Origin: Thermomonas brevis
GTDB taxonomy: Bacteria; Pseudomonadota; Gammaproteobacteria; Xanthomonadales; Xanthomonadaceae
Reading direction: 5' to 3'
NCBI RefSeq assembly: GCF_014395425.1
Contig: NZ_CP060711.1
Location: forward strand, 62,001-126,000
Length of the DNA: 64,000 nt
The translations under genes and the position numbers were made by a program. The notes beneath the pieces are model-generated. The model did not search any database. It was not told the origin of the DNA and worked only from the letters and a program-made list of their open reading frames with translations. Below, piece after piece: positions 4,987 through 60,743 of this stretch (its first letter is position 1; each line of letters begins with the position of its first letter).

Positions 4987-7734
<2,748 letters not shown>

Positions 7735-7807
7735 GGACGGGCTCCGGGGTGGCGATGGCGATGCCGGCGCAAACACTTGGGACAGGCGATGACAACGCCA
7801 TCTTGCG

Positions 7808-8689
7808 ATGTCGATGTTAAGCCGGATTGAAAGGGGGCGACGTTCCGTGACGAGGCCGATCAAAGCGAAGCGACGGAAAACCGGCGGGCACCAGGCCCTG
7901 CGCATCGCCGCCTGGACGACGGTGCCGGCGGGCGTGTTCCCGGCACAGGCCGCCACCGGAGGCGGCGCATCCGGCGGCTGGCTGGGCCTGCTGCTCGCGC
8001 TGCTGGTCGGCGTCGGGTTCGGTTGGCTCGTCCGGGGACTGCGCGCGCGGCGCGAACGCGGCGGCCTGGCGCAGCGGCTCGAAGAATGCGGCGCCGACCG
8101 GCAGCGGCAGGACGAACAGTTGCAGGCCGTGCGGCAGGACAGGGACGAACTGGCCGGCCAGTTGCAGCGGCAGACGGTGGAGTTCGCGCGGCAGGCGCAC
8201 GAGGACGCGCTGACCGGGCTGCCCAACGGCCGCGCCTTCGACGAAGGCTTCGCCCACCATTTCTCCCGCGCCAAGCGGCACGGGCAGGCGCTGTGCCTGA
8301 TGCTGCTGGACCTCGACCACTTCCGCGACATCAACAACAACTGGTCGCACGCGGTGGGCGACGAGGTGCTGGTCGAGGCCGCGCGGCTGCTGCGCTCGGT
8401 CTGCCGCACCTCGGACCTGCCGGCGCGGCTGGGCGGCGACGGCTTCGCGGTGATCCTCACCGATACCGACATCGAAGGCGGCAAGCGCTTCGGCCAGCGC
8501 CTGCACGCCGCGTTCGCCAGCTGCCGCAGCTGGCATTCGGCCGAGGTCGGGCCGAACTACGTCAGCGTCAGCGCCGGGCTGGTGCAGCTCGGCGAGGAAG
8601 ACCAGGCGCCGGCCCAGCTGCGCCAGCGCGCCGACCGGGCGCTGTACCTGGCGAAGCACGCGGGAGGCGCGCGCACCAGCCTCGGTTGA
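7808..8689 (+). CDS. Membrane-anchored GGDEF protein with altered active site
   Basis: The ~293-residue product has an N-terminal basic stretch, one membrane segment near residues 57-76, a Gln/Arg-rich coiled coil to about 130 and a C-terminal GGDEF domain (DALTGLPN at 133-140, LDLDHF at 167-172). The signature reads GGDGF (209-213) instead of GGDEF, so the fourth acidic residue is lost. The inhibitory-site motif RxxD is intact as RTSD at 200-203, exactly five residues before the signature. The protein may therefore bind cyclic di-GMP without making much of it. A GTG 39 bases inside the frame is preceded by AGGGGG and is an alternative start. It is divergent from acnA. Confidence 0.85.
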
Positions 8690-46281: not shown

Positions 46282-47166
46282 TCAACGCAACAGGCTGAGC
46301 ACGTTCTGCGGCGCCTGGTTGGCCTGGGCCAGCATCGCGGTGCCTGCCTGGGTCAGGATCTGCGTGCGGGTCAGGTTGGCCGTTTCCGCGGCGAAGTCCG
46401 TGTCCATGATGCGGCTGCGGGCGGCGGAGATGTTCTCGACCGAGATCTGCAGCGTGCTGATCACCGACTCGAAGCGGTTCTGGGCCGCACCGTAGGTGGC
46501 GCGCTCGGCGTTCAGCTTGTCCAGCGCCACGTCGATGTCCTTGATCGCGGCCTTGGCGGCGACTGCGGTGCTGCCGGTGATGGCGGAGGCGGAACCGGTG
46601 ATCGTCGCGATCACGGCGTCGGTGCCGGTCGCGCTGCTCAGGCTGCCGCTGGTGCCGGCGGTGCCGCCGGACAGCTTGCTGCGGGCGATGCTGACGGTGT
46701 CGTTCGAGGTGGTGCCGGCGCCGACCTGGAAGTCGAACGCGGAGGAACCGGTGAACAGCTTGGTGCTGTTGAAGGTGGTGCCGTTGACCACGCGGCCGAT
46801 TTCGTCCTGCAACTGCTTGAACTCGGCCTGCAGATTGGTGCGGTCGTCCGAGCTGTTGGTGGCGTTGGCGGACTGGACGGCCAGCTCGCGCATGCGCTGC
46901 AGCGAGTCGCCGATCTTGCCCAGCGCGCCTTCGGCGGTCTGCGCCAGCGAGATGCCGTCGTTGGCGTTGCGGATGGCGACGTTGGAACCGCGGATCTGCG
47001 CGTTCATGCGCTCGGCGATGGCGAGGCCGGCGGCGTCGTCCTTGGCGCTGTTGACGCGCAGGCCCGAGGACAGGCGCTGGATCGAGGTGGACAGGCCGAG
47101 ATTGCTGGCGTACAGGTTGCGCTGGGTGTTCAGCGACATCAGATTGGTATTGACGCTATTAGCCAT
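46282..47166 (-). CDS. fliC: FliC, flagellin
   Basis: The 294-residue flagellin has the conserved D0/D1 ends (SLNTQRNLYASNLGLSTSIQ; SSGLRVNSAKDDAAGLAIAE; at the end MDTDFAAETANLTRTQIL and QANQAPQNVLSLLR). The central variable part is short and Ser/Thr/Gly/Ala-rich, offering many possible O-glycosylation sites. It is the only flagellin gene in the window. I start at MANSVNTNL, with AGGAG ten bases upstream; the long in-frame upstream extension has no flagellin features. The next gene on the other side is the divergent glycan operon. Confidence 0.97.
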   Translation of the reverse strand: MANSVNTNLMSLNTQRNLYASNLGLSTSIQRLSSGLRVNSAKDDAAGLAIAERMNAQIRGSNVAIRNANDGISLAQTAEGALGKIGDSLQRMRELAVQSANATNSSDDRTNLQAEFKQLQDEIGRVVNGTTFNSTKLFTGSSAFDFQVGAGTTSNDTVSIARSKLSGGTAGTSGSLSSATGTDAVIATITGSASAITGSTAVAAKAAIKDIDVALDKLNAERATYGAAQNRFESVISTLQISVENISAARSRIMDTDFAAETANLTRTQILTQAGTAMLAQANQAPQNVLSLLR

Positions 47167-47263: not shown

Positions 47264-47290
47264 GTAACGGCGTTGCACCAACCGCCTTGA
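47264..47290 (-). promoter_or_regulatory. Probable sigma28 promoter of fliC
   Basis: TCAAGGCG is followed after exactly 11 bases by GCCGTTAC. Against consensus the -35 is weak, but TCAAG and CCGTTA at this spacing are the same as in the two other sigma28 sites of the window (cheY and STAS groups). The predicted start is about 90 bases before fliC. Confidence 0.5.
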
Positions 47291-47442: not shown

Positions 47443-47459
47443 CGGCATGCGTCTTGCTT
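47443..47459 (+). promoter_or_regulatory. Sigma54 promoter of the glycan operon
   Basis: CGGCAT-GCGTC-TTGCTT has the invariant GG and GC at correct spacing and fits the -24/-12 consensus (T/C GGCA C/T, then TTGC A/T). It points at the LicD-type gene, whose start is 78 bases further on. This would put the whole LicD to acyltransferase operon under RpoN and probably FleQ. Confidence 0.72.
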
Positions 47460-47536: not shown

Positions 47537-49171
47537 ATGCGGGTCAAGACCATCGACTGGGAACGCTTGCCCCGGATTGATCGCCTGCTCCGCGAGCAAC
47601 GCTACGAGGAACTGGAAACCGTACTGGCGGAGCACTCCAGCCAGGATCTGCTGAGCGACGAAGCCTTGATGGCCGCACGCGCAATGAACCTGGCGCCCAC
47701 CGTGATCTACCTGGCCACGCTGGGCATCGAGAACCTGCCGGCGCCGGGCCAGCGAGCCATGTGGATGGAGGTGTACCGCACGCTGGGCAGAAAGGCGCCT
47801 ACCGAGGGATTCCTGGCGCTGCCCAAGCGGCTGCCGGCTCGTTGGGTGGCGCAGAACGCCATTTCCGGGAGGAAGCCGGATCTGGCCACGCTGCGCCAGT
47901 GCAAGGGGAAACTGCATGACTGGCGCGACGCCTTCGAACTGGCGGTCGACCAAGGGCATTACGAACTGCTGGAATGCATGACGTCGCACCTGCTGGCGCA
48001 GGCCACCTCCGTCGACGATTGGCTGGAACTGGCGGGCATGCTCATGGAGCGGGACTCCATGCTGAACACCAGGATCGACATGCTGCCGCTCGCGCGCAGC
48101 CTGCTGCGCATCTGCAAGCGGCTCCCGGACCGCGGATTGATGTACACCCGCACCATGCTGGCGTTGAAGGCCGCGAATTATTTCCGGCTCGGAGGCGCGA
48201 ACGCGCAGGCCATCGCTGCCGCGGAGTTCATCTCCGATCCCGACCATCAATTGCTCAAGATGATCCTGATCTCCGAGGCGTACTGCCATCTGGGCGACCT
48301 GCCGCGCAGCATCGAATGGATCGACCGCTTGCTGCGCGCCGCCGCGACGCAGCCCAAGCACGCGGACGAAATCAGGATCTGGTACGAAAAGAACGACAGG
48401 CTCAAGGAACAGGCATCCAGCTTCAATCCGGAGAGCGCGGGCGAGGCGCTGGTGGCGTTGCAACGCCTGCTTGACCGCAGCGGCCACAAGGCTTTCCTCG
48501 TCTCCGGCACCTTGCTGGGCTACGCGCGCGAAGGCCGGCTGCTGGCCCACGACAAGGACATCGACGTCGGCGTCATGAACTGGGAAAGCCAGTTCGACAT
48601 CGTCATGGCGCTTGCCGAGAGCGACCAGTTCGCCCTGAACACCCGCACCATGGTCGGCGCGCAGACGTACGCGCTGGTGGTGCTGCACCTTCCCACCGGC
48701 ATCACCATCGACGTCTTTCTGTATCACCCCGAAGGCGACAAGCTGGTCACCGGCGTGCAGAGCCAATTCGGCTATTTGCAGAAGTTCGCGTTCACGCCGT
48801 TCGGCCTCGAGCAGGTGGATTTCCTTGGCATCAAGGTCTACGTCCCGGACGATGTGGATCGCAACCTGACCGAGAACTTCGGCGCAGGCTGGCGCACCCC
48901 GGACCCGGGGTACCTCTCGCACCTCGAATCGCCGTCCACGATGGACGTGGGCGGGCTGGTATACCAACTCGTCGGACGCCAGAACTGCCTCATGGCCATC
49001 CAGAGAGGCAAGCCGGACAAGCTTCTGCGCGCACTGACGCTGCTTGAGCGGGTGCAGGGCGAACCCTGCGGAATGAAGCCCGACCTGGTGGAGGGCCTGC
49101 GCCGACTGGGCATGGACTTCCCGCAGTCTCCCGTTGCCAGCGGGCCGGAGCAGGCGGAGGCCGCGGCATGA
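47537..49171 (+). CDS. LicD/fukutin-type phosphotransferase with helical N-terminal domain
   Basis: The 544-residue product has a ~300-residue helical N-terminal part (for example RIDRLLREQRYEELETVL) and a C-terminal LicD/fukutin-type nucleotidyltransferase-fold domain. Its signature is SGTLLGYAREGRLL (from ~323) with the metal-binding DKDIDVG (from ~339). LicD enzymes move phosphocholine, and fukutin and FKRP move ribitol-5-phosphate from CDP-ribitol. The next gene makes CDP-ribitol and no choline genes are seen, so ribitol-phosphate transfer is the better guess. The gene is divergent from fliC. A helical extension could bind the flagellin acceptor, but that is inference. Confidence 0.8.
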   Translation: MRVKTIDWERLPRIDRLLREQRYEELETVLAEHSSQDLLSDEALMAARAMNLAPTVIYLATLGIENLPAPGQRAMWMEVYRTLGRKAPTEGFLALPKRLPARWVAQNAISGRKPDLATLRQCKGKLHDWRDAFELAVDQGHYELLECMTSHLLAQATSVDDWLELAGMLMERDSMLNTRIDMLPLARSLLRICKRLPDRGLMYTRTMLALKAANYFRLGGANAQAIAAAEFISDPDHQLLKMILISEAYCHLGDLPRSIEWIDRLLRAAATQPKHADEIRIWYEKNDRLKEQASSFNPESAGEALVALQRLLDRSGHKAFLVSGTLLGYAREGRLLAHDKDIDVGVMNWESQFDIVMALAESDQFALNTRTMVGAQTYALVVLHLPTGITIDVFLYHPEGDKLVTGVQSQFGYLQKFAFTPFGLEQVDFLGIKVYVPDDVDRNLTENFGAGWRTPDPGYLSHLESPSTMDVGGLVYQLVGRQNCLMAIQRGKPDKLLRALTLLERVQGEPCGMKPDLVEGLRRLGMDFPQSPVASGPEQAEAAA

Positions 49172-50511
49172 CCGGCAGGACCACGGCCTACGTGCTGCTG
49201 GCCGGCGGCAGCGGCAGCCGGCTGGGCGCGCACGTGCCCAAGCAGTTCATCCGCGTGGCCGGCAAGACCGTGCTGGAGCACAGCTACGCCTGCATCGCCG
49301 GCTTCGCGCCCGGCGCGCGGATCGTGGTGACGGTACCGGCCGATTCATTGGCGTTCGTGCGCGAGCTACTCAGGAACACCGCGGCGGAAGTGATCGTCGG
49401 CGGCGCATCGCGGCAGGAATCCGCCTGGGCGGCGCTGCGCCACCTGAAGGCCTCGGCGCCGGACAACGTCGTCCTGCACGACGCCGCGCGTCCGTTCCTG
49501 GACCACCAGATCCTGCACGACGTCGATGAAGCGCTGGGCCACGTCGATGCCGTGGACGTGGCGATCAAGACCGCCGACACGATCATCGTCGAGCGCGACG
49601 GGCTGATCCAGAGCATCCCCAAGCGCGACCACCTGTTCCGTGGGCAGACGCCGCAAGGCTTCCGCTTCCAGGCGCTGCTGGGCTGTTACGAGGAGCTTGG
49701 CGCGGAACGGCTGGGCGAGTTCACCGACGACTGCGGCATCTACCTGGCCTGCAATCCGCTGAGCCCGGTCCGCATCGTCCAGGGCAGCACCGAGAACATC
49801 AAGATCACCGACGCGGTGGACCTGATCCTGGCCGACGAACTGTTCCGCATCCGCCAGCAGCGGCTCGCGCCCAACCTGGGCGGCGTTGACATGCAGGGCC
49901 GGCGCGTACTGGTGTTCGGCGGCAGCATGGGCATCGGCAAGGCCATCGCGCAGATCGTGGAAGAGGCCGGCGGCACCGTGCGCAGCCTGTCGCGCGGCAA
50001 CGGCTGCGACATCGCCGACCACGCGCAGGTGGCGGCCGCCATCGCGGAAGCGCAGCGGGAGTGGGGCGGGATCGACCACGTGGTCAACGCCGCCGGCGTG
50101 CTGGTCAAGGGGCCGCTTTCCACCCAGTCCCCGCTCGACGTGGCGCAGCAGGTGTCGGTCAACCTGCTGGGCGCGCTCAACGTGGCGCAGTGCAGCCACG
50201 CGGCGCTGAAGGCGTCGAAGGGCATGCTGCTGAACTTCTCTTCGTCGTCGTTCACCCGCGGGCGCGCCGAATACTCCGCGTATTCCGCCTGCAAGGCCGG
50301 CATCGTCAACATGACCCAGGCGCTGGCCGACGAGTGGATGGACGACGGCATCCGGGTGAACTGCATCGTGCCCGGCCGCACCGACACCGCAATGCGCCGC
50401 AGCAACTTCGCCGGCGAGGATACCCGCACGCTGCTGAGCCCCTACGAAGTGGCGCTGGTGGCGGCCAAACTGATGAGTTCGACCGAAACGGGAGTGATTG
50501 CCCGTGTCTGA
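49168..50511 (+). CDS. CDP-ribitol synthase: IspD-type cytidylyltransferase fused to SDR reductase (Bcs1/Acs1-like)
   Basis: The 447-residue product has an N-terminal IspD-like domain (LLAGGSGSRLGAHVPKQF, HDAARPFL, FRGQTPQGF) to about 235, then a short-chain reductase domain with FGGSMGIGKA (NADP-binding loop, ~250) and the catalytic YSACK with preceding SSSS. This is the layout of Haemophilus Bcs1/Acs1, which reduces ribulose-5-phosphate to ribitol-5-phosphate and couples it to CTP. The N-terminal domain alone could be mistaken for isoprenoid IspD. Its ATG overlaps the LicD stop, so the two are co-made. Confidence 0.87.
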   Translation: MTGRTTAYVLLAGGSGSRLGAHVPKQFIRVAGKTVLEHSYACIAGFAPGARIVVTVPADSLAFVRELLRNTAAEVIVGGASRQESAWAALRHLKASAPDNVVLHDAARPFLDHQILHDVDEALGHVDAVDVAIKTADTIIVERDGLIQSIPKRDHLFRGQTPQGFRFQALLGCYEELGAERLGEFTDDCGIYLACNPLSPVRIVQGSTENIKITDAVDLILADELFRIRQQRLAPNLGGVDMQGRRVLVFGGSMGIGKAIAQIVEEAGGTVRSLSRGNGCDIADHAQVAAAIAEAQREWGGIDHVVNAAGVLVKGPLSTQSPLDVAQQVSVNLLGALNVAQCSHAALKASKGMLLNFSSSSFTRGRAEYSAYSACKAGIVNMTQALADEWMDDGIRVNCIVPGRTDTAMRRSNFAGEDTRTLLSPYEVALVAAKLMSSTETGVIARV

Positions 50512-50539: not shown

Positions 50540-51676
50540 ATGAGCGAGTCTCCCATCTTCGTCACTCGGCCCGAACTCCCGCCGCTGGAAGATTTTCTTC
50601 CTTATTTGCAGGAGATCTGGGAAACACGGGTATTGACGAACAATGGCCCGTTCCACCAGAAGCTGGAAGCGGCACTGTGCGAATACCTTGGAGTGCCGTA
50701 TATCTCGCTATTCACGAACGCAACATTGGCGCTGGTCACCGCATTGCAAGCACTGCGCGTCACTGGCGAGGTAATCACGACTCCTTATTCGTTTGTCGCC
50801 ACCGCACATTCGTTGATGTGGAACGGCATAAAGCCGGTATTCGTGGATATCGACCCAGTGACACTGAATCTGGACCCACTCCGCATCGAGGCCGCGATCA
50901 CACCGCAGACGACGGCGATCATGCCGGTTCACTGCTACGGCACACCATGCGATGTCGATGCGATTCGTCGCATTGCCGACGACTATGATCTGAAGGTGAT
51001 TTACGACGCCGCGCATGCCTTTGGCGTCCAGCGCCAGGAAGGCGACGTGATGCGCAGCGTTCTCAACCACGGTGATCTATCGGTGTTGAGCTTCCACGCG
51101 ACCAAGGTATTCAATACCCTTGAGGGTGGCGCGATCATTTCGCCGGATGCACGCACCAAGCAACGCATCGACCACCTGAAGAACTTCGGTTTCGTCAACG
51201 AGACCACTGTGGTCGCGACCGGCATCAACGGCAAGATGAGCGAGGTCAACGCGGCACTCGGACTGCTGCAGCTCAAGCATGTGGATCATGCGATTACACG
51301 CCGCAGCGAGGTCGAGTCAACCTACCGCCAGCTATTTACGGACGTGCCAGGACTGCGCATGCTGGACATACCGGCCAACGCACAGCGGAACCACTCATAT
51401 TTTCCGATTTTGATCGAACCGGGCTTTGGGGCCTCGCGCGACGATGTTTATCAGGCACTGAAGGTGCGCAACGTGTTCGCGCGGCGCTACTTCTACCCGC
51501 TGATTTCCGATTTTCCGATGTATCGAGGCCTGCCATCAGCCAGCGCGGCGAATCTGCCTGTTTCCCATACTACGGCCAGCCAGGTGCTATGCCTGCCGAT
51601 CTTTCCGTCGCTGACGGATGTGGACATCGAACACATCGCCTCCATCGTCCAGAGTACGCCGTCGAGCACGTTGTAA
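50540..51676 (+). CDS. DegT/DnrJ/EryC1/StrS sugar aminotransferase, VioA-like
   Basis: The 378-residue PLP enzyme has the family features: an N-terminal substrate loop (WETRVLTNNGPFHQKLE), DAAHAFGV, and the PLP lysine K189 in SFHATKVFNTLEGGAI. Such enzymes aminate nucleotide 4-keto sugars. With the acyltransferase next to it and a GT56-type transferase, the best fit is VioA, forming dTDP-viosamine from dTDP-4-keto-6-deoxyglucose; FdtB- or WecE-type products cannot be excluded. RmlA/RmlB are not in the window. Base composition is visibly less GC-rich than the genes before it, suggesting separate acquisition. Confidence 0.82.
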   Translation: MSESPIFVTRPELPPLEDFLPYLQEIWETRVLTNNGPFHQKLEAALCEYLGVPYISLFTNATLALVTALQALRVTGEVITTPYSFVATAHSLMWNGIKPVFVDIDPVTLNLDPLRIEAAITPQTTAIMPVHCYGTPCDVDAIRRIADDYDLKVIYDAAHAFGVQRQEGDVMRSVLNHGDLSVLSFHATKVFNTLEGGAIISPDARTKQRIDHLKNFGFVNETTVVATGINGKMSEVNAALGLLQLKHVDHAITRRSEVESTYRQLFTDVPGLRMLDIPANAQRNHSYFPILIEPGFGASRDDVYQALKVRNVFARRYFYPLISDFPMYRGLPSASAANLPVSHTTASQVLCLPIFPSLTDVDIEHIASIVQSTPSSTL

Positions 51677-51691
51677 AATGAGGGGCAGCGC

Positions 51692-52342
51692 ATGAGTGAC
51701 CGCTTGTTCGGGCTGTATGGTGCGGGTGGCTTTGGTCGAGAAGTTATGCCTCTGGCGCGATCTCAGCTCGGTTCGGGTTGGCGGATCGTATTCGTCGAGA
51801 CCCAGCCTCACGACGCCAAGGTCAACGGCTTCCCGCTGCTTTCCGAAGACGATTTCTTCGCGGCGCAGGCTTCCGAACGTTGCTTCGCTGTCGCAATCGC
51901 GGACTCGCATGCACGGGAAGCGATAGAGAAGCGCTGCACGCAGCGTGGCGCACACGCCCTGTCGTTGAGCGCACACAATGCAACGATCTATGACGACAAC
52001 CGGATCGGCCACGGCGCGATCCTGTGCGCGCACACGACGATTACCTCGAATGCAAGCATCGGCTGTCACTTCCACGCAAACATCTATTCGTACGTTGCGC
52101 ACGATTGCGTTATCGGCGACTACGTGACATTCGCGCCGCGCGTGAGTTGCAACGGCAACGTGCATATCGGGAACCATGCTTACATCGGCACCGGGGCAAT
52201 GCTCCGTCCTGGAGTGCCTGGTGGCCGACCATTGACCATCGGCGAAGGCGCAATTGTTGGCATGGGTGCGGTCGTAATCCACGACGTCGAACCGCACACG
52301 ACCGTAGTCGGCAGTCCCGCGCGAGCCATCACGCGTCGCTGA
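51692..52342 (+). CDS. NeuD/VioB-type hexapeptide acyltransferase
   Basis: The 216-residue product has a PglD/NeuD-like N-terminal domain starting with the GAGGFGREV nucleotide-binding loop, then left-handed beta-helix hexapeptide repeats (IGHGAILCAHTTITSNASIG; IGDYVTFAPRVSCNG; VHIGNHAYIGTGAML) and the usual end TTVVGSPAR. The likely role is N-acylation of the 4-amino sugar made by the gene 15 bases upstream, as VioB does for viosamine. AGGGGC before the ATG is the probable ribosome site. Confidence 0.83.
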   Translation: MSDRLFGLYGAGGFGREVMPLARSQLGSGWRIVFVETQPHDAKVNGFPLLSEDDFFAAQASERCFAVAIADSHAREAIEKRCTQRGAHALSLSAHNATIYDDNRIGHGAILCAHTTITSNASIGCHFHANIYSYVAHDCVIGDYVTFAPRVSCNGNVHIGNHAYIGTGAMLRPGVPGGRPLTIGEGAIVGMGAVVIHDVEPHTTVVGSPARAITRR

Positions 52343-52392: not shown

Positions 52393-53838
52393 CTATGCGC
52401 TGTGTCGCGCTCCCGTCGCCGCCCCAATCAGCGCCTTCGTACGCGCAAGTTGCAACTCGCGCCCGATCATGCCCATGAACACATCGGCCTGTGCGCGACG
52501 CGCCGTGGCCGATAGCGGCGTCAAGTCACCGCCGCCAATCGCCTCGACCGGAACACCCTGCTCGTGCAGCCATGGATGCAGCGGGCTGCTTGGGTTGACA
52601 TGCAGTTTCGCACCCAGCAGCCCACTGATGATGAGGTTGCCAAATGCTTGCTGGCGCACATGATTCATCATCACGTGACCGCAAGATCTGAGTAGCGCGA
52701 TATAGCGCTCGCGCGGCATGAAGTCCACCAATGGCACGAACCGATCGCCGAACTTGTCCCGACCATCTTGCAGGATGGCTGCACGATATGCGCCGTCCCC
52801 ATAGCTCAGCGGCACGATGAGTTGCCGACCGGCAAGATCCACGTGATCGTGCAAATAATCGAACAATTCGAGGTGGTTATTGGTCGCCGTCGCACTATTG
52901 CCCACGAGGATATTGGGCGCGTGCTGATCCAGCGTCGCGCCGGGCAAGCTGAGGTCGTTCTCGGCATTGCCATAGTTCCAGCGCAAGTAGCGGGCACGAA
53001 AGCCGGGAACACAGCGCCGCACGATGTCGAATTCGGAGGGCAAAACCGGGCTGAAGATATCGACACGAGCGAGCGCAGCTTGCTCCTCCATGGTTGCACG
53101 CGGGTAAGGATGCGCGAAGTCCTGCGTTGCAGAGACCAACCCGCGCGTCGCCAGTTGCTCGGCGAGCCTCGTGGTGAGCGGCATCAACAATCCATCGGGA
53201 AAGGCGTCGCGGATCAGACCATAGTAGTCGTAACCCCAGCCGATCCATGTGACACAGCAGTGGTTGGGCACCACCGCCAGCGCGGCAAGGTGGCGCCGCT
53301 CCATGGTGTGACAGACCACACCGGCAGCATGGGCCGCGATCTGTGCGAAACCATCCATATCGACGCAACGCACTCGTGCATCCTTGATGTACTTGAAGGG
53401 CTGACGCCCGTTCAGCACCACCCATTCATGACGCCCAGGATCCGCCTGTTCGAAATCGCGAATGGCCATGTCGATGAACTTGTCATCCACCACCAAGTGC
53501 AGCAGTTTGGAGACAGGAAGTGTGGGGGCGGGCTCGGATGGAACGGTGACGACTGTCGTTGCGAGCGCGACCGCCAGGGCCTGCTCGTAGCGTTGCAGTG
53601 CGGCCAGCGCCGAGCCGCCGGGCAGCGGCCCGCCCAACAGCCCGCGCAAGCTGTCGGCTGCGCCATGCAATGTGGGCTGCTCGGGAAGGCACGTATTCAC
53701 TGCATCCAGCGCCTCGCCGATCAGACGGCGCAGGTCGGGCAGGTCCGCACCTCGCGCCAGGTACTCGACCGCTTCGCGGATGGTGGCGGCCAATTCGCGG
53801 GCGCGCTCGTGATCGGCAGCGTTGTAGCGCGTGTTCAT
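52393..53838 (-). CDS. GT56 (WecF/VioT-like) glycosyltransferase with N-terminal helical domain
   Basis: The 481-residue product has a helical N-terminal ~110 residues (ARELAATIREAVEYLARGAD, ALQRYEQALAVALA) and a C-terminal domain resembling Fuc4NAc-transferase-like GT56 enzymes (LLHLVVDDKFIDMAIRDFEQ, WIGWGYDYYGLI, NILVGNSATATNNHLE, LIVPLSYGDGAYRAAI). WecF uses dTDP-Fuc4NAc, and VioT-type enzymes use the related dTDP-viosamine. It is convergent with the acyltransferase gene and probably transfers the sugar made there. I start at MNTRYNAADH; upstream in-frame codons have no support. Confidence 0.78.
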   Translation of the reverse strand: MNTRYNAADHERARELAATIREAVEYLARGADLPDLRRLIGEALDAVNTCLPEQPTLHGAADSLRGLLGGPLPGGSALAALQRYEQALAVALATTVVTVPSEPAPTLPVSKLLHLVVDDKFIDMAIRDFEQADPGRHEWVVLNGRQPFKYIKDARVRCVDMDGFAQIAAHAAGVVCHTMERRHLAALAVVPNHCCVTWIGWGYDYYGLIRDAFPDGLLMPLTTRLAEQLATRGLVSATQDFAHPYPRATMEEQAALARVDIFSPVLPSEFDIVRRCVPGFRARYLRWNYGNAENDLSLPGATLDQHAPNILVGNSATATNNHLELFDYLHDHVDLAGRQLIVPLSYGDGAYRAAILQDGRDKFGDRFVPLVDFMPRERYIALLRSCGHVMMNHVRQQAFGNLIISGLLGAKLHVNPSSPLHPWLHEQGVPVEAIGGGDLTPLSATARRAQADVFMGMIGRELQLARTKALIGAATGARHSA

Positions 53839-53957
53839 GGGTGTGCGGCGATCCGGGGAAACGGCTAGAGGGCAGAATGATGGGGCGGGGGAGATGAAGC
53901 AAGTCGGTAGCCCAAGAGCTTCGCTCGCGTGCTGCGTGGATGGCAAAGCGTTCCATT

Positions 53958-53974
53958 CGGCACGGCAGTTGCAT
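53958..53974 (+). promoter_or_regulatory. Sigma54 promoter of the modular glycosyltransferase genes
   Basis: CGGCAC-GGCAG-TTGCAT matches the sigma54 consensus at every position except the first T/C, with correct spacing. It lies in the 267-base divergent region and points at the gene starting 132 bases downstream. The same -24 half (CGGCAC) is used at fliL. Confidence 0.75.
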
Positions 53975-54087
53975 AGCGTTTCGGGGGCATCATTGGCTCG
54001 CATTGGCGGCGCGTCTTATGCTCCCAAACGGCCGCACACCAGCCTGTTCGCAGACCTGTCTAAAGCGGCACGAAAAGGCATAACCAA

Positions 54088-54105: not shown

Positions 54106-57100
54106 ATGCAACATGTTCCCCCCTCCGGACCGGGTGAATTGGAGCAAGCCAGAGCTTGGCTGATGCAGGAAGGAATCGTTGCCACGCCGCGCGTGCTGGC
54201 GGTGCTGGCGCAAGTGCCCGACATTGAATCGAACGAGCCCGCGCAAGCCGTGTTGGCCGACGTCGTCGCGGTGCTGCTGGACGGGTGCGAACGGGGAGAG
54301 TTGGCCGGCGTGATCTCCGTGTTCGCGGATTGCCCGCCCGCACTTGCGAAAATGGCGCTGGCCCTGCTCACGGCGGCGTTCTTCCCGGATGGGAAAATCG
54401 TTCCCGCCGAGTTCGACGATTCGGCGATTCTGTGTTTTTCGCTGTTCGTTGCCGTCGCAGGCCAGCCTGCCGATGCATTGGATCTGATCGGCTTGACGGT
54501 GAAAGAGCGCAAGGGCGAACGGTTCGCCGCCAATGCCGCTTTGCTGCGCGCGCATATCGAGAAAGGGCCGGGCGGGGGCCTGCCGCTCTCACAAAGAGAG
54601 CGCGTATCTGAAGCGGAACGCAACGCCATAGTGCTCCAGGTTCGGCAGCATGAGGCCCGACGGCGTGAGGCGGCGGTCAACAAACAACCCAAGGTTCACT
54701 TGGCCGAAAAGCACATGCGCAACTGCGCGTTGCTGCTCGACCGTGGTCAGCTGTTGACCAAGCTGCCACGCGGCGGCACCGTGGCCGAACTCGGCGTGGA
54801 TCGTGGCGACTTCAGTGCCCGGATCCTTGAACTGACCCAACCGACGCGCTTGCACCTGGTCGATCTGTGGGGATCCGAGCGCTACCACGGCGGCCTGTTC
54901 GACAGCGTCAAGCAGCGCTTCGGCACAGAGATCGCCGATGGCCGCGTACAGGTGCATCGCAAGATGTCGGTGGATGCCGCAGACGACTTTGCCGACGCCA
55001 GCTTCGACTGGATCTACATCGACACCGACCATTCTTACGAGACGACCGCTCGGGAACTGCGCCGCTTCGCCTCCAAGATCAAGGATGGCGGCTTGATCGC
55101 CGGCCACGATTACTGCATGGGCAACTGGGCCAACGGCTACCGCTACGGCGTGATCGAGGCGGTGCATGAATTCTGCGTCAAAGAGAACTGGGAGCTCGTT
55201 TATCTGACCGCCGAGCCGCTTGAATCACAGAGCTTCGCGATCCGGCGCATCCGGCAAGACGCCGGCGAGTACGAGTCAGCAAAACCCGCAACAACTCCCC
55301 GCGCCCTGATCTACATGACGGCCAGAAACTGTGAACGCTATGTAAGCGACAGCCTGCGCAGCCTCGCCAGTCAGACCCACGACAACCTGCATGTACTGTT
55401 CATTGACGATGCCTCGGACGATGCCACCGGCAACATCGCCTCCGGATTGCTGGAAGAGCTGTTCCCAGGGCGACACAGCTTCATCCGCAATGACAGCCAT
55501 TGGGGGAAGGCGCGCAACGCCCATGTGCATCTGCGCGCCCTTGCGTCGGACGCCACCTTCGTTGCAATCCTCGATGGCGATGACCACCTGATCGTCCCCG
55601 ACATCCTCGCGCGCGTTGCGGAGCAGTACGCGCTCGGCACGGATGTTGTCTGGACCAACTACGTCACCGACCAGAACAAGGTCGGCCACTGCGGCCCGCT
55701 CGACCCGCGCCGCTCGCCGCGCCATCAAGGCTGGAAGAGCAGCCACCTCTTCACTTTTCGTGCCGAGTTGCTGGCCAATGTCGGCGAGAACTATTTCAAG
55801 GATGAGAGCGGCGCCTGGTTCATGTCGGCCTGCGATTGGGCGATTGCCTATCCCATCCTCGATCAAACCCGGCGCTATCACTACATTCCCGAGAGCACCT
55901 ACCGTTACACCACCAGCAACCCGCACTCGCATCACAACAGCGATCCTGATAACCCGCCGCAAGCAGGCAAATTCACTTCCGCATTGCAGAAGCATAACGC
56001 CAAACAAGTATTGAACAAATCGCCGCTGCCCTGCTTGCGTGACCTACCGCAGGAAGCCTCCCGCCCGGTCCCGCCCAAAGAAGTCCGCCCAACGACCTCC
56101 GAACCTCCTGAACTGGAGAAAGCCAGAGCGTGGCTGACGCAGGAAGGCCTCGTCGCCACGCCGCGCGTGCTGGCGGTACTGGCGCAAGTGCCTGTCATCG
56201 AAGCGAACGAATCGACACAGGCCATGCTGGTCGACGTGATCGCGGTGCTGTTAGACGGGTGCGAACGGGGAGAGTTCGCGAGCGTGATCTCCGTGTTCGC
56301 GAACTGCCCGCCTGCACTTGCGAAAATGGCGCTGACCCTGCTCACGGCAGCGTTTTTCCCGGACGGCAAAATCATCCCAACCGAGTTCGACGATTCGGCT
56401 GTTCTGTGTTTCTCGCTGTTCGTTGCCGTCGCAGGCAAGCCTTTCGAGGCGATGGAACTAATCGACTTGACGGCGAAAGAGCGCAAGGGCGAACGGTTCT
56501 CCGCCGATGCCGCTTTGCTGCGGGCGTACGTGGCGGATTTGAAAATGGAGGATATGAGCGATTTCAGGGGCTTCTTCATCAACCTGGACCGCTCGGCCGA
56601 TCGAAAGAACGCGTTGGAAAGCACGCTTGAACGATTAGGACTCAATGGCGTAGTGAAACGATTCCCCGCAATGGAAGGCGACAGCCGACCCAGCGCGATC
56701 TCGCCGAACGAATTGGGGTGCTTCCTGTCGCATCAGCGGGTCATCGAGACAGCGGATCCCGAACGGCATCTGCTGGTGTTCGAGGATGACGTCTGGTTCC
56801 CGGCGCAGTTTCAGCGCTATTTCCAGATCGCGCAGCGACTGATGGCCAACGATACGTGGGACATGGTTTTTCTCAACATGAGCGTGAACTTTCTGCAGGT
56901 AAGCCGTGTGCAACGACTGATCCGGGCCAAGAGACAGCTCGGCGACATCCATACACCAGCTTTTTCACAGTTCGGCCTGAACGATGCGAGAGGCCTATAT
57001 GACTTCGGGATGATGGCGTATGTGGTCCGCAAGGGCGCGCAGGCGAAAATCGGCGCGATCCTCGCCGAGGCGGCGCATGGTGGCTACCAGCAACCGATCG

Positions 57101-57372
57101 ACAATGTCATCGGCGCGGCGATCCGCACCGGCCGGATCAAGGCCAGCATACTGTTTCCCTATATCGTCGGGATCGACCAGAGCCTGTCCGTCGCGATCTC
57201 CGACCGCAAGAAGCGAAATTTGCTGTTCAACGACATCGTGAATCTGTTCGTAGCGGGTGTCGACACCCAGGCGTTGACTGCACGCGCCGTGGCGGGCGCC
57301 CACGACGAGCCATTCGACGTCGATGCCTACGTGCAGAGCCAACTTGTCTATCGATGGCTGGCGAACGCCTAG
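54106..57372 (+). CDS. Modular protein: unknown domain, methyltransferase, GT2, unknown domain, GT25
   Basis: This 1088-residue fusion has five parts: module A (residues ~10-152, unrecognised, helical), a class I SAM methyltransferase (~200-385; VAELGVDRGDFSARIL, WIYIDTDHSYET, GGLIAGHDYC) and a GT2 glycosyltransferase (~399-620; ALIYMTARNCERYV, LFIDDASDDAT, AILDGDDHL). A second module A (~668-810) and a GT25 glycosyltransferase (~815-1075; FFINLDRSADRKNALE, ELGCFLSHQRVIE, LLVFEDDVW) follow. It may add and O-methylate sugars on flagellin. The methyltransferase is notable because P. syringae flagellin carries an O-methylated viosamine. An internal ATG near 56555 could give GT25 alone. Confidence 0.85.
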   Translation: MQHVPPSGPGELEQARAWLMQEGIVATPRVLAVLAQVPDIESNEPAQAVLADVVAVLLDGCERGELAGVISVFADCPPALAKMALALLTAAFFPDGKIVPAEFDDSAILCFSLFVAVAGQPADALDLIGLTVKERKGERFAANAALLRAHIEKGPGGGLPLSQRERVSEAERNAIVLQVRQHEARRREAAVNKQPKVHLAEKHMRNCALLLDRGQLLTKLPRGGTVAELGVDRGDFSARILELTQPTRLHLVDLWGSERYHGGLFDSVKQRFGTEIADGRVQVHRKMSVDAADDFADASFDWIYIDTDHSYETTARELRRFASKIKDGGLIAGHDYCMGNWANGYRYGVIEAVHEFCVKENWELVYLTAEPLESQSFAIRRIRQDAGEYESAKPATTPRALIYMTARNCERYVSDSLRSLASQTHDNLHVLFIDDASDDATGNIASGLLEELFPGRHSFIRNDSHWGKARNAHVHLRALASDATFVAILDGDDHLIVPDILARVAEQYALGTDVVWTNYVTDQNKVGHCGPLDPRRSPRHQGWKSSHLFTFRAELLANVGENYFKDESGAWFMSACDWAIAYPILDQTRRYHYIPESTYRYTTSNPHSHHNSDPDNPPQAGKFTSALQKHNAKQVLNKSPLPCLRDLPQEASRPVPPKEVRPTTSEPPELEKARAWLTQEGLVATPRVLAVLAQVPVIEANESTQAMLVDVIAVLLDGCERGEFASVISVFANCPPALAKMALTLLTAAFFPDGKIIPTEFDDSAVLCFSLFVAVAGKPFEAMELIDLTAKERKGERFSADAALLRAYVADLKMEDMSDFRGFFINLDRSADRKNALESTLERLGLNGVVKRFPAMEGDSRPSAISPNELGCFLSHQRVIETADPERHLLVFEDDVWFPAQFQRYFQIAQRLMANDTWDMVFLNMSVNFLQVSRVQRLIRAKRQLGDIHTPAFSQFGLNDARGLYDFGMMAYVVRKGAQAKIGAILAEAAHGGYQQPIDNVIGAAIRTGRIKASILFPYIVGIDQSLSVAISDRKKRNLLFNDIVNLFVAGVDTQALTARAVAGAHDEPFDVDAYVQSQLVYRWLANA
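54133..54561 (+). repeat. Module A, copy 1 (143 codons)
   Basis: This is the first of three in-frame copies of a ~143-residue helical module (ATPRVLAVLAQV, VLLDGCERGEL, FFPDGKIVPAEFDDS, KERKGERFAANAALLRA). Copies 1 and 2 agree at most bases over the last two thirds, by eye well over 80 percent. I do not recognise the domain. Similarity to copy 3 continues a little past the module (GPGxGLPLS). Confidence 0.9.
56107..56535 (+). repeat. Module A, copy 2 (143 codons)
   Basis: This copy lies inside the same gene and stands directly before the GT25 domain. It has the same length as copy 1 without visible insertions or deletions, and shares long identical runs with it, such as the one coding for the KERKGERF region. 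Confidence 0.9.
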
Positions 57373-57387
57373 CCAAGGAGCCATCTT
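57373..57387 (+). repeat. Duplicated ribosome-binding leader, copy 2
   Basis: This is an exact copy of the 15 bases at 54088-54102. It begins at the stop codon of the first modular gene, which shows where the duplicated unit was joined and supports the start at 57393. Confidence 0.85.
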
Positions 57388-57392
57388 CAATC

Positions 57393-58748
57393 ATGCAGCC
57401 ATTGCCTCCCGGACTTGCCGAACTGGAACAAGCCAGAACATGGCTGACGCAAGAAGGCATCGCCGCCACACCGCGCGCGTTGGCTGTGCTGGCGCAAGTG
57501 CAAGACATCGAAGCGAATGAGCCAGCGCAAGCCGTGCTGGCCGACGTGATCGCAGTGCTGTTGGATGGCTGCGAACGGGGAGAGCTGGCGAGCGTGATTC
57601 CCATGCTTGCGGATTGCTCACCTCCGCTTGCCAAAATGGCGGTCGCCATGCTCGCGGCGGCGTTTTTCCCTGATGGAAATATTGTTCCGGCCAAGTTCGA
57701 CGATTCGGCTGTCTTGTGTTTCGCACTGTTTGTCACCGTTGCGGGCCAGCCTTTCAAAGCCCTGGAGCTGATCGACTTGGCGGCGAAAGAGCGCAAGGGC
57801 GAACGGTTCGCTGCCAATGCCGCTTTGCTGCGTGCATATATCGAGCAAGGCCCGGGCAGCGGCCTGCCGCTCTCCGTGATCGTCCCCAGCTACAAGGGGG
57901 ACGACTGGATTCTCGACGGTCTCGATTCGCTTGCGGAGCAGTCGCTGCCGTGGAGCAGGTACGAGGTGATCGTGGTGGTCAACGGGCCGCGCACCCAAAC
58001 CCCGGAGCTGATCGAGTCGTGGCTTGCCCGCCATCCCGGCTTCCCGCTGAAAGTGATCGTCACCGAGAAGGCCGGGGCCGCCCACGCCCGCAACCTCGGG
58101 CTGGATGCGGCGCAGGGCGAGTACGTCGTCTTCATGGACGACGACGACCGGGCTGGGCGCACCATGCTGGAGGCGCTGCTGCGTAACGCCGCGCCTGACG
58201 TGGTGCCCATCGTTCCGGTCGGCTTCGTCACGAACGACTGGCAACATCCGCAAAACGACAATTGGTGCAATCGCAGCATTCTTCCCCTGCTCGGACATAT
58301 CTCGCCATGGCAGGATCTCAGGCACTCGGGCGTACACGTGTGGGGGAAAGCATGGCTTCGCAAGCGTGCCCTACTGGCGCGATTCAACGAGGATGTGATG
58401 ACGGGGGAAGACTTCGTATTCACCCTTGACTACGTGAACGTCGCACCCAGCGCCTTGGCGCCGGTTTCGCCGGGCCACGAATCGTCTTACCTGTGGTGGC
58501 ATCGCCCCGGCTCCCTGTCCGTCAGGGCCGCGGACATGAACGACTGGGATAAGCACGTCGAGCCGTGGCTGAAGGTGGTCAAGGCACTCGCCGCAGCGAG
58601 GCCCACCTCGACCGCAGCCGCCGCACTCCAGAAGTACATGGTGCCCAAGGTGGTGGACACGTTCCTGAGTGCTTATCTGCAACGGCACCCGGAGGACATG
58701 CAGCGCATGGTCGATGCGCTGACGGAGCGCGGCGTCAAGGTTGGATAG
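57393..58748 (+). CDS. Modular GT2 glycosyltransferase with N-terminal module A
   Basis: The 451-residue product has module A (~9-151), the linker GPGSGLPLS and then a GT2 domain from about 162 (VIVPSYKGDDWILDGLDSL; ARNLGLDAAQGEYVVFMDDD, with the metal-binding acidic run at ~248-252). A C-terminal helical region follows. I start at MQPLPPGL rather than the in-frame ATG at 57354, which lies inside the previous gene, because the duplicated leader with AGGAG precedes it. In its partner gene the same linker is followed by a methyltransferase instead, suggesting domain swapping at the linker. It is presumably co-transcribed with the gene before. Confidence 0.85.
   Translation: MQPLPPGLAELEQARTWLTQEGIAATPRALAVLAQVQDIEANEPAQAVLADVIAVLLDGCERGELASVIPMLADCSPPLAKMAVAMLAAAFFPDGNIVPAKFDDSAVLCFALFVTVAGQPFKALELIDLAAKERKGERFAANAALLRAYIEQGPGSGLPLSVIVPSYKGDDWILDGLDSLAEQSLPWSRYEVIVVVNGPRTQTPELIESWLARHPGFPLKVIVTEKAGAAHARNLGLDAAQGEYVVFMDDDDRAGRTMLEALLRNAAPDVVPIVPVGFVTNDWQHPQNDNWCNRSILPLLGHISPWQDLRHSGVHVWGKAWLRKRALLARFNEDVMTGEDFVFTLDYVNVAPSALAPVSPGHESSYLWWHRPGSLSVRAADMNDWDKHVEPWLKVVKALAAARPTSTAAAALQKYMVPKVVDTFLSAYLQRHPEDMQRMVDALTERGVKVG
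57417..57845 (+). repeat. Module A, copy 3 (143 codons)
   Basis: This third copy forms the N-terminus of the GT2 protein and has the same length as copies 1 and 2. It is somewhat more diverged from them (for example ATPRALAVLAQVQDIEANE and VIPMLADCSPPLAK). Confidence 0.9.
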
Positions 58749-58803: not shown

Positions 58804-59013
58804 CTACTTCCATGAAAGGTTGAGTGTGCGATGTTCTGCCGCGCAGTCACGCAGATACAGATTGATCAAGCTCTGGTAGGGGATGCCAACCTTCTCTGAA
58901 ATCGACTTGAAGTAGTCGATAGCGTCACCGTCCAGGCGAATGGTGATTTGCTTCTTAAGTTGAGAAGCGTAAGGGTTCTTCTTGGCTTTGGAGAAATCGT
59001 ATTCCTTGCGCAT
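58804..59013 (-). CDS. brnA: BrnA-type antitoxin
   Basis: The 69-residue product has a basic N-terminus followed by a ribbon-helix-helix-like domain (KKQITIRLDGDAIDYFKSIS, IPYQSLINLYLRDCA), as in BrnA antitoxins. It follows the toxin gene by ten bases, the usual brnT-brnA order. Codon use is clearly less GC-rich than in the flagellar genes. AGGTG lies before the ATG. Confidence 0.88.
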   Translation of the reverse strand: MRKEYDFSKAKKNPYASQLKKQITIRLDGDAIDYFKSISEKVGIPYQSLINLYLRDCAAEHRTLNLSWK

Positions 59014-59023
59014 GTTGCACCTG

Positions 59024-59302
59024 TCAGTACTGACGAGATTCTGGTTTTGTTGCCTTTCTGGCGGAGATGATACGGATGGAGTTGTTCTGTTCGCGGTAAC
59101 AGTGACAGACCACCAGCAATCGTAAGTGGAGGTTGAGGCCGAGGAGGATGAACCGATCCTCATCTTCCGAATGGTCCGGGTCAGGGATGATTTTTGCTTG
59201 TTCGTCAGCGAAGACTGACCTCGCCTCGGCGAAGTCGATGCCATGCTTCTTGAGGTTCGCGGCGGCTTTGGCCGGATCCCACTCGAAGTGAAGTTCGCTC
59301 AT
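59024..59302 (-). CDS. brnT: BrnT-type ribonuclease toxin
   Basis: The 92-residue product matches BrnT: FEWDPAKAAANLKKHGIDF near the start, then EDRFILLG, LVVCHCYRE and the end RIISARKATKPE. BrnT is a RelE-fold RNase whose key residues include the His and Arg of these motifs. I start at MSELHFEWD, after the palindromic operator; the longer frame reads through that operator. Confidence 0.92.
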   Translation of the reverse strand: MSELHFEWDPAKAAANLKKHGIDFAEARSVFADEQAKIIPDPDHSEDEDRFILLGLNLHLRLLVVCHCYREQNNSIRIISARKATKPESRQY

Positions 59303-59534: not shown

Positions 59535-60743
59535 TCAAAGCAGATCGAACAACGAACTCCGCTGTATGCGCGCCATCAGCTGCTGAGCCGCATCCAGCGC
59601 GGCCTGGCTGAGTTGCAGTTGGCTGATGGCTTCCACCGGGTCGGTATCGCGCAGGTTGGACAGCGCTTCCGACAGGGTGATGCCGTCGGCACTGCGCGAG
59701 GCGTCGGCGCCGTCGAGGTCGTTGCGGCGGATGCCGGTGGCGGAGCGGATGTCCAGCAGGTGGTCCTGAGCGGACACCAGGTCCTTCTGGCCGGCGCGCA
59801 GCGCATTGGTGCGGCGGGCCACGTCGGCGTCGGTGCTGCCGGGCGAGTCCAGCGCGTCGATCAGGTTCTGCAGGGTGGCGAAGATGTCCTGGTTCGGCGC
59901 CTTTTCCAGCGTGAAGCTGTCGCCCGCGGCCGGCGCGCCGGTGACGTTGAACTGCACGCCCTGCGCGGTGATCGCCTGGCCCGGCGTCCATGCGCCGGCC
60001 ACCGGCGGGCTCAGCGGATTGCCGCTGCCGTCCAGCACTTCGTAGCTGTCCGGCGTGGGGAAGCTCAGTTGCAGGGTGCCGCCGTTCCACAGCGCCTGGT
60101 TGGTGACCTGCGCGGAGCCCAGCACGCCGCTGCCGGTGTTGCCGGCGCCCGCGAAGGCGCGACTGATGCCGTCGCCGGTGGCGACGCGCAGGAACACCGC
60201 GCTGCCCGGATCTGTGTCGGCGACCGCCACCGACGGCGCCACGTCCACGTCGTTCTGGCCGTCGTCGCCGAGGTAGATCACGTTGCCGTTGCTGTCGGTG
60301 AACGGCGCCACGCCGTCGCGGTTACCCGCGAACAGGCTGCGGCCGGTGCCGTCGTCGCGATTGGCGATCTGCAGCAGGCTGGAACGCAGACCGCGCATTT
60401 CCACCGCGATGGAATGCAGGTCGCTGTCGCTGAGGATGCCGTTGCTGGCCTGGATGGTCAGGTCGCGCGCGCGCTGCAGCACGTCGCCGGCGTCGGACAG
60501 GGCCGACTCCTGGCTGCGCAGGCGGTTGCTCAGCACGGTGCTGTTGCTTTCGAACTGGTCGAGGCTGGCGAGGGTGTGCTCCAACCGCAGAGCGCTGGAC
60601 ATGCCGACCGGGTCGTCCTCGCCGCGGGTGAGCTTCACGCCGGTGCTGATTTGCTGCTGCAGCTTGCTGATCTCGCTCTGCCGGGTGCGCATCGCGTTCA
60701 GCGAATTGAAGTGCATCTGGGCGGTGGAAATGCGCATCGACAT
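59535..60743 (-). CDS. flgL: FlgL, hook-filament junction protein
   Basis: The 402-residue product has the flagellin-like N-terminus (MRISTAQMHFNSLNAMRTRQ; ISTGVKLTRGEDDPVGMSSA) and C-terminal coiled coil (LSEALSNLRDTDPVEAISQL) of FlgL/HAP3. It joins the hook to the filament after FlgK. It lies ten bases after flgK; either of two ATGs two codons apart could start it. Confidence 0.95.
   Translation of the reverse strand: MSMRISTAQMHFNSLNAMRTRQSEISKLQQQISTGVKLTRGEDDPVGMSSALRLEHTLASLDQFESNSTVLSNRLRSQESALSDAGDVLQRARDLTIQASNGILSDSDLHSIAVEMRGLRSSLLQIANRDDGTGRSLFAGNRDGVAPFTDSNGNVIYLGDDGQNDVDVAPSVAVADTDPGSAVFLRVATGDGISRAFAGAGNTGSGVLGSAQVTNQALWNGGTLQLSFPTPDSYEVLDGSGNPLSPPVAGAWTPGQAITAQGVQFNVTGAPAAGDSFTLEKAPNQDIFATLQNLIDALDSPGSTDADVARRTNALRAGQKDLVSAQDHLLDIRSATGIRRNDLDGADASRSADGITLSEALSNLRDTDPVEAISQLQLSQAALDAAQQLMARIQRSSLFDLL

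Follow-up and report, generated by a model that had tools for sequence, protein, structure and literature searches.

A candidate pathway for CDP-ribitol synthesis and ribitol-phosphate transfer beside the flagellin gene of Thermomonas brevis

The stretch of 64,000 nucleotides of the Thermomonas brevis genome that is analysed here (contig NZ_CP060711.1, positions 62,001 to 126,000; the window) contains a flagellar gene cluster and, within it, two overlapping genes, the products of which probably constitute an accessory module for modification of the flagellar filament. Cytidine diphosphate (CDP)-ribitol would be made by one protein, and ribitol phosphate would be placed by the other on flagellin or on its glycan. 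The first gene (47537..49171, plus strand, 544 aa) encodes a predicted phosphoribitol transferase with a tetratricopeptide repeat (TPR)-like half and a LicD/fukutin-type half, and the second (49168..50511, plus strand, 447 aa) encodes a fusion of the Bcs1/Acs1/ISPD type, a predicted CDP-ribitol synthase. The genes share a 4-bp ATGA overlap (49168..49171, plus strand), suggestive of translational coupling. A first-pass annotation of the window had described a LicD/fukutin-type transferase overlapping a Bcs1/Acs1-like fusion, and both open reading frames (ORFs) are where it placed them.

To see how the module would operate, consider the proposed reactions in order. With NAD(P)H as reductant, the short-chain dehydrogenase/reductase (SDR) half of the fusion would convert D-ribulose 5-phosphate into D-ribitol 5-phosphate, which the cytidylyltransferase half would then combine with CTP to give CDP-ribitol. 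The TPR-like half of the transferase would dock cytoplasmic flagellin, a step that follows the example of FlmG in Caulobacter, and the LicD half would move ribitol phosphate from CDP-ribitol to flagellin, or to a glycan already on flagellin, before export.

The transferase and the fusion

Residues 1-290 of the transferase are helical and TPR-like, a feature absent from the first-pass annotation, while residues ~293-530 form a LicD domain, in which the LicD/fukutin family signature occurs together with a nucleotidyltransferase fold. Structure prediction and family search against FKTN/FKRP and LicD had been proposed as a check, and the AlphaFold model (mean predicted local distance difference test, pLDDT, 90.3) has human FKRP as its best structural match in the PDB. 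The transferase has the motif H338-D339-K340-D341-I342-D343 and a further aspartate, D392. D339, D341 and D343, which are invariant among the aligned relatives, align with the catalytic motif of FKRP (D360, D362 and D364), and D392, also invariant there, appears to correspond to FKRP D416. Judged by this alignment the catalytic aspartates are intact, and membership of the LicD/fukutin family predicts that the enzyme moves a phospho-group from a CDP donor. Matches to AcrIIC4 in the PDB, obtained in a single-sequence search (E 0.13-0.15), were discarded as chance. No other LicD or TagF-type match was found in the genome by a search of limited sensitivity, since its PF04991 part also missed the window's own LicD.

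In the fusion, an IspD-fold cytidylyltransferase (residues 8-225; Pfam IspD, 155.7 bits) is joined to an SDR reductase (residues ~240-447; adh_short, 111.7 bits). Two ribitol-5-phosphate cytidylyltransferases (114.2 and 111.1 bits) head its sequence matches in the PDB, and the third and fourth (108.5 and 94.7 bits) are named there as enzymes of the methylerythritol phosphate (MEP) pathway. One MEP-named match, 2vsh, we take to be pneumococcal TarI; other MEP enzymes follow from 86.8 bits downwards. When Foldseek is given the fusion model (pLDDT 81.8, predicted template modelling score 0.51), human ISPD is ranked first (479 columns, E 5e-20) and Staphylococcus aureus TarI second; the matches listed by another structural search were SDRs, to the reductase half. 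Comparison of motif columns with those of 15 IspD proteins from genomes favours a TarI-like character of the fused family, with AVDVAIKTADTII against the typical IspD GAILAAPVRDTLK, RGQTPQ against RALTPQ and TDDCGI against TDEAMA, one comparator (L006) being partly off the IspD pattern. The RPF column was rejected as a sole diagnostic, because L006 has RPF and the fusion of locus L063 lacks it. A fusion relative from Proteus exceeds the cut-off of the NCBIfam ribitol model (183.4 against 166). In the reductase half, N307, G310, S359-361, Y372 and K376, which we take to be SDR active-site positions, are invariant in 25 aligned rows, so that the active site is intact in this respect, and the catalytic residues of the fusion are invariant among the aligned relatives. 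From its family, the fusion is predicted to make CDP-ribitol.

The same module, with the same flagellar target, could nevertheless work with another CDP-activated polyol, such as arabitol or mannitol phosphate. Pneumococcal CDP-arabinitol and CDP-mannitol enzymes exist, and neither sequence nor structure sets the reductase half apart from generic SDRs, from which follows that polyol specificity cannot be read from this domain. Such a substitution is unlikely, however, when the cytidylyltransferase half is considered: among solved structures it is nearest TarI and ISPD, ribitol 5-phosphate is the best substrate found for ISPD, and Acs1 is described as a fusion of ribulose-5-phosphate reductase and CDP-ribitol pyrophosphorylase (PMC4873967).

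CDP-ribitol synthesis followed by ribitol-phosphate transfer, as the first-pass annotation had read the pair, agrees with the family searches and with human ISPD (CRPPA) and FKRP being the best structural matches of fusion and transferase, respectively. Human ISPD and FKRP/fukutin, which belong to the alpha-dystroglycan pathway, share with the pair the donor logic and the catalytic aspartate motif, and the pair looks like a bacterial counterpart of this pathway. There are also differences. FKRP has a glycosyltransferase-like stem where the window transferase has its TPR-like half, the reductase of the fusion keeps the SDR catalytic residues, and the pair is bacterial and presumably cytoplasmic, with flagellin as its presumed target. 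Haemophilus Acs1/Bcs1 has its domains in the same order as the fusion, and is located in a capsule locus, whereas the window fusion is located beside flagellin genes. According to its published description, Acs1 too has cytidylyltransferase and reductase in one protein (PMC4873967). The same source places ribitol phosphate on a protein-linked structure in alpha-dystroglycan, where loss of the pathway leads to muscle disease (PMC4873967).

Flagellar linkage of the pair and its relatives

The pair is divergent from the flagellin gene fliC (46282..47166, minus strand, 294 aa, with Flagellin_N and Flagellin_C matches), the product of which is its presumed target, and the gap between them is 370 bp. 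On the far side of fliC are genes for FlaG, FliD, FliS, an atypical PilZ protein, RpoN and a FleQ-type activator, while a FlgL-position protein, FlgK and a FlgJ-type protein are encoded at 59.5-63.6 kb of the window. With flagellar genes on both sides, the first-pass annotation was right in placing the pair within a flagellar cluster and in an orientation divergent from fliC. Transferase and fusion are the first genes of an island bounded by fliC and by a gene that is probably flgL, given its place before flgK (59535..60743, minus strand, Flagellin_N and Flagellin_C). Accessory, variable genes thus occupy a flagellar slot beside flagellin, as in a flagellin modification island.

A survey of fliC-linked pairs in relatives, also proposed in the first-pass annotation, extends this picture. 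No relative was found when contigs were scanned with the transferase as a single sequence, but a scan of GTDB-representative contigs with an alignment (A1) gave 40 loci, with a full-length, N-extended transferase in 26 (L020-L045) and a match to the C-terminal part alone in 14 (L046-L059). The fusion follows the transferase in 24 of the 26, and in the other two (L036 and L045) the contig ends there. In 18 of the 26, flagellin, FlgL or FlgK is encoded no more than 10 kb away, a count from which a weak FlgK-type match in L023 (25 bits) is excluded. A fliC-type gene occurs within 10 kb in 15 loci, in 13 of these within 1.1 kb; that of L045 is an 877-aa ORF with 89 bits. In the six Hydrogenophaga loci none of the genes for flagellin, FlgL and FlgK is counted within 10 kb, but the contig carries fliC 10.9-13.0 kb away, and a second, weaker flagellin-domain gene, presumably flgL, lies 13-27 kb away on the other side. 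Cultured type strains of this genus, those of Hydrogenophaga pseudoflava and H. flava, possess the pair. One of these loci (L020) has upstream motA, motB, a CheY-type regulator, cheZ, flhB, flhA, an FlhF-type GTPase, an unscanned ORF and fliA, followed by the pair and, further downstream, by an FlgA-domain ORF and an FlgE/F/G-type protein. Among the 14 distant LicD loci, which served as controls, some of them on short contigs and some possibly from hosts without flagella, there was neither a fusion nor a flagellin match; for flagellar linkage in 18 of 26 against 0 of 14, Fisher's test gives p = 1.4e-5. All counts of neighbouring genes refer to mechanical ORF calls. The placement of the pair varies: in some loci it is divergent from fliC, in others it lies downstream of fliC in the same orientation, or it follows fliA or FlgL. 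The N-extended family is found in flagellar clusters of both Burkholderiales and Hyphomicrobiales, and such differing arrangements around a constant flagellar theme point to function.

Several observations speak against the proposed module. The Pfam LicD match of the transferase (residues 319-347) is slightly below the curated cut-off (21.9 against 22.6 bits), and its TPR-like half is called from weak matches (CTPR3, E 0.005; the OGT TPR domain 1w3b, E 0.019). The structural match between fusion and ISPD has a root-mean-square deviation of 11.9, which means that the domain arrangement differs and that no single rigid fit covers both domains. The NCBIfam ispD model scores the fusion higher than the ribitol model does (163.7 against 141.9), both below cut-off, and the JGI-named homologues listed for the fusion are mostly MEP cytidylyltransferases, only three (P0168, P0177 and P0180) being named ribitol enzymes ('ribitol-5-phosphate 2-dehydrogenase (NADP+) / D-ribitol-5-phosphate cytidylyltransferase'). 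The surveyed loci are not independent, with six from Hydrogenophaga and several near-copy pairs, and two of the 26 (L028 and L030) are unlinked, their draft assemblies having flagellins only on other contigs. Finally, the fusion is absent from 24 other genomes of the genus (best match E 8e-25, to the IspD part only), 8 of which have flagellin, and from this follows that the pair is dispensable for flagella.

The IspD family match and the order of the two NCBIfam scores, although both are under cut-off, would also be expected if the fusion were a second IspD of the MEP pathway and its neighbour an inactive or unrelated nucleotidyltransferase. This is highly improbable: 24 of 26 loci have both transferase and fusion, the catalytic residues of both are invariant in aligned relatives, and a separate canonical ispD elsewhere in the genome scores 235.8, above the NCBIfam cut-off. 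On account of this separate gene, the candidate assignment of the fusion as a second-copy MEP enzyme was rejected.

Another explanation is that the pair serves the O-antigen or some other surface glycan and is merely parked in a flagellar slot, for which the sugar genes of the window island and the two loci without flagellin linkage would speak. It would also fit the more distant fusions, 39-40% identical, of Parabacteroides (L063) and Proteus (L062), which likewise come with a LicD, directly next to the fusion in L063 and separated from it by one gene in L062. The Parabacteroides locus is of capsule type, with an annotated Wzy, and the Proteus locus, which is unannotated, looks O-antigen-like when read by eye; their LicD proteins (302 and 265 aa) lack the N-terminal half of the window transferase. 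It had been stated beforehand that the filament prediction would fail if the pair were found mainly with lipopolysaccharide or capsule loci, and this applies to such distant fusions with a short LicD, but not to the N-extended family, of which only 2 of 26 loci are unlinked. Considering that this family recurs in flagellar clusters of two orders in differing arrangements, and that none of 20 scanned ORFs beside Hydrogenophaga pairs (14 in L020, 1 in L021 and 5 in L024) matches a glycosyltransferase or polysaccharide-export family in Pfam (3 of the 20 have no match at all), a surface glycan is an improbable target.

The possible acceptor of ribitol phosphate

The way in which the transferase may reach flagellin is suggested by Caulobacter FlmG, where a TPR half (1-313) is combined with a transferase half (309-596); the TPR half binds flagellins, and the catalytic half by itself does not bind flagellins and fails to restore their modification (PMC7591256). 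To judge from this described domain plan, FlmG and the window transferase have nearly the same layout (PMC7591256), and by analogy the latter may work like FlmG. The chemistry would differ: FlmG has a GT-B domain and uses pseudaminic acid, while the window transferase is a fukutin-type phosphotransferase. As it has no GT-B domain, and its C-terminal half is LicD/FKRP-like, it was rejected as a member of the FlmG type. What is new in the pair is the TPR-LicD architecture and the flagellar home, the chemistry of the pathway being of a known kind.

Given the proposed filament module, ribitol phosphate might go only onto a flagellin glycan that is built by neighbouring glycosyltransferases, and never onto the protein directly. 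This version, the probability of which overlaps that of the module as a whole, has somewhat less than an even chance of being correct. It is suggested by the sugar genes that adjoin the pair, both in the window and in L029. After the pair, the window encodes a DegT-type sugar aminotransferase (50540..51676, plus strand) and a NeuD/PglB/VioB-type sugar acyltransferase (51692..52342, plus strand; TIGR03570, 180.9 bits, cut-off 160.8), from which an amino-deoxy sugar would arise as the underlying glycan, and then three glycosyltransferase proteins. These are a WecF-like (GT56) enzyme (52393..54003, minus strand), an 1088-aa multidomain protein with Methyltransf_24, GT2 and GT25 parts and two copies of a repeated domain (54106..57372, plus strand), and a GT2 enzyme with a further copy of this domain at the N-terminus (57354..58748, plus strand). 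In L029, the pair is followed by rmlC, B, D and A-type genes and a TPR-GT41 protein, with the same clusters in L025 and L032. Furthermore, FKRP itself works on a glycan.

The Hydrogenophaga pairs point the other way. Glycosyltransferases are missing from their scanned neighbours, as described above, and, in searches confined to GT41 among the glycosyltransferase families, no match was found in four of the six Hydrogenophaga genomes or in the genome of the window. Because of these two results, a direct protein acceptor has to be considered, such that the TPR-guided fukutin-type enzyme would attach ribitol phosphate to serine or threonine of flagellin without an intervening glycan (protein O-phosphoribitylation). 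We regard this as possible, but rather doubtful.

Among known flagellin decorations, those of Pseudomonas aeruginosa PAO1 (b-type) and Clostridioides difficile (Type A) contain a phosphodiester, by which N-methylated threonine, not ribitol, is attached to the glycan (PMC11833859). No report of a flagellin bearing ribitol phosphate was found in the search listings and passages covered, which came from open-licence literature, a scope outside of which most subscription papers lie, and no LicD-ribitol case occurs in the parts covered of PMC5560731, PMC7526173 and PMC5109656, the last of which reports tagD for a single flagellin island of Geobacillus. The earlier statement that no such flagellin has been described stands to this extent; it is qualified by a 2016 genomic survey of Enterobacteriaceae, in which ribitol biosynthesis is listed for flagellin islands of FGI type 12 in two strains (PMC4875605). 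Those islands belong to other bacteria and are known from genomics only, and LicD has no occurrence in the main text of that survey (PMC4875605). Judged from the pair and its flagellar linkage, ribitol phosphate is a candidate for a new decoration of the flagellum.

Origin, neighbouring features and significance

In a class sample of 369 genomes, the full-length transferase occurs only in the window's own genome, with one other genome (G111) matching the LicD domain alone (E <= 1e-20), and the fusion at E <= 1e-32 is likewise confined to the own genome. In a midpoint-rooted tree the window transferase clusters with those of Hydrogenophaga (support 100/99), which makes a gain by transfer likely, perhaps from a betaproteobacterium. 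GC content is 0.646 in the licD gene, 0.688 in the fusion gene and 0.57-0.63 in the later island genes, against 0.70 over the first 46 kb of the window. Seven other genomes of the genus have 1.1-6.3 kb between fliC and the FlgL-type match, one more (G014) has ~60 kb, and the distance here is ~13 kb, so the slot is variable.

The sigma54 promoter that had been placed before the pair is doubtful. The top plus-strand sigma54-like site in the 370-bp gap (47443..47458, CGGCATGCGTCTTGCT) is weak, with 9/11, and is little above chance, since the 12 plus-strand sites scoring at least 9 in the 64-kb window correspond to ~0.07 expected per gap. It is outscored by minus-strand sites with 10-11/11 across the flagellar cluster (39381, 32435, 28116, 25068 and 63646). 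Before fliC there is a sigma28-like site (47264..47290, minus strand; TCAAG-N14-GCCGTTAC), with 5/5 and 6/8 positions in agreement with what we take to be the consensus.

The repeated domain of the island has ~160 residues and three copies, at residues 1-162 and 648-809 of the 1088-aa protein and at residues 10-174 of the 464-aa protein. The copies are 68-78% identical and have no listed Pfam match; the domain is possibly a docking domain. The end of the island next to flgL holds a BrnT toxin/BrnA antitoxin pair (58804-59302, minus strand; Pfam 103.4 and 34.9 bits), in a stretch with a GC content of 0.528.

Some relatives have further genes near the pair. A second LicD-like protein follows it in L028 (12921-14159), L030 (4325-5563) and L041 (12945-14198; 20.2 bits, below cut-off). 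In L041 a CTP_transf_like (TagD-type) gene is next to it, and the cluster of that gene is also present in L028 and L030; these genes perhaps add a step with glycerol phosphate to that with ribitol. In L040 another full-length ORF (6235-7818) resembles the transferase, though it is very diverged and without Pfam match; it lies 2.9 kb from the first transferase and closer to the flagellins. Adenylylsulfate kinase-type and inositol-monophosphatase-family proteins are encoded after the pair in L039, with the same clusters in L044, and L027 has an Stf0 sulfotransferase-type protein (13002-13883) with cluster mates in L039 and L044, which suggests a sulfated decoration.

If the proposed module is real, a two-gene bacterial pathway acts on an abundant and easily purified protein and gives flagellin a new chemistry. 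Fukutin-type transferases could be studied in it as a tractable model, and it would also mark the diversity of filament surfaces. Were ribitol phosphate in fact attached directly to flagellin, O-phosphoribitylation would be a new class of protein modification as well as a new flagellar decoration, carried by a two-gene cassette that has spread among Burkholderiales, Hyphomicrobiales and the lineage of the window.

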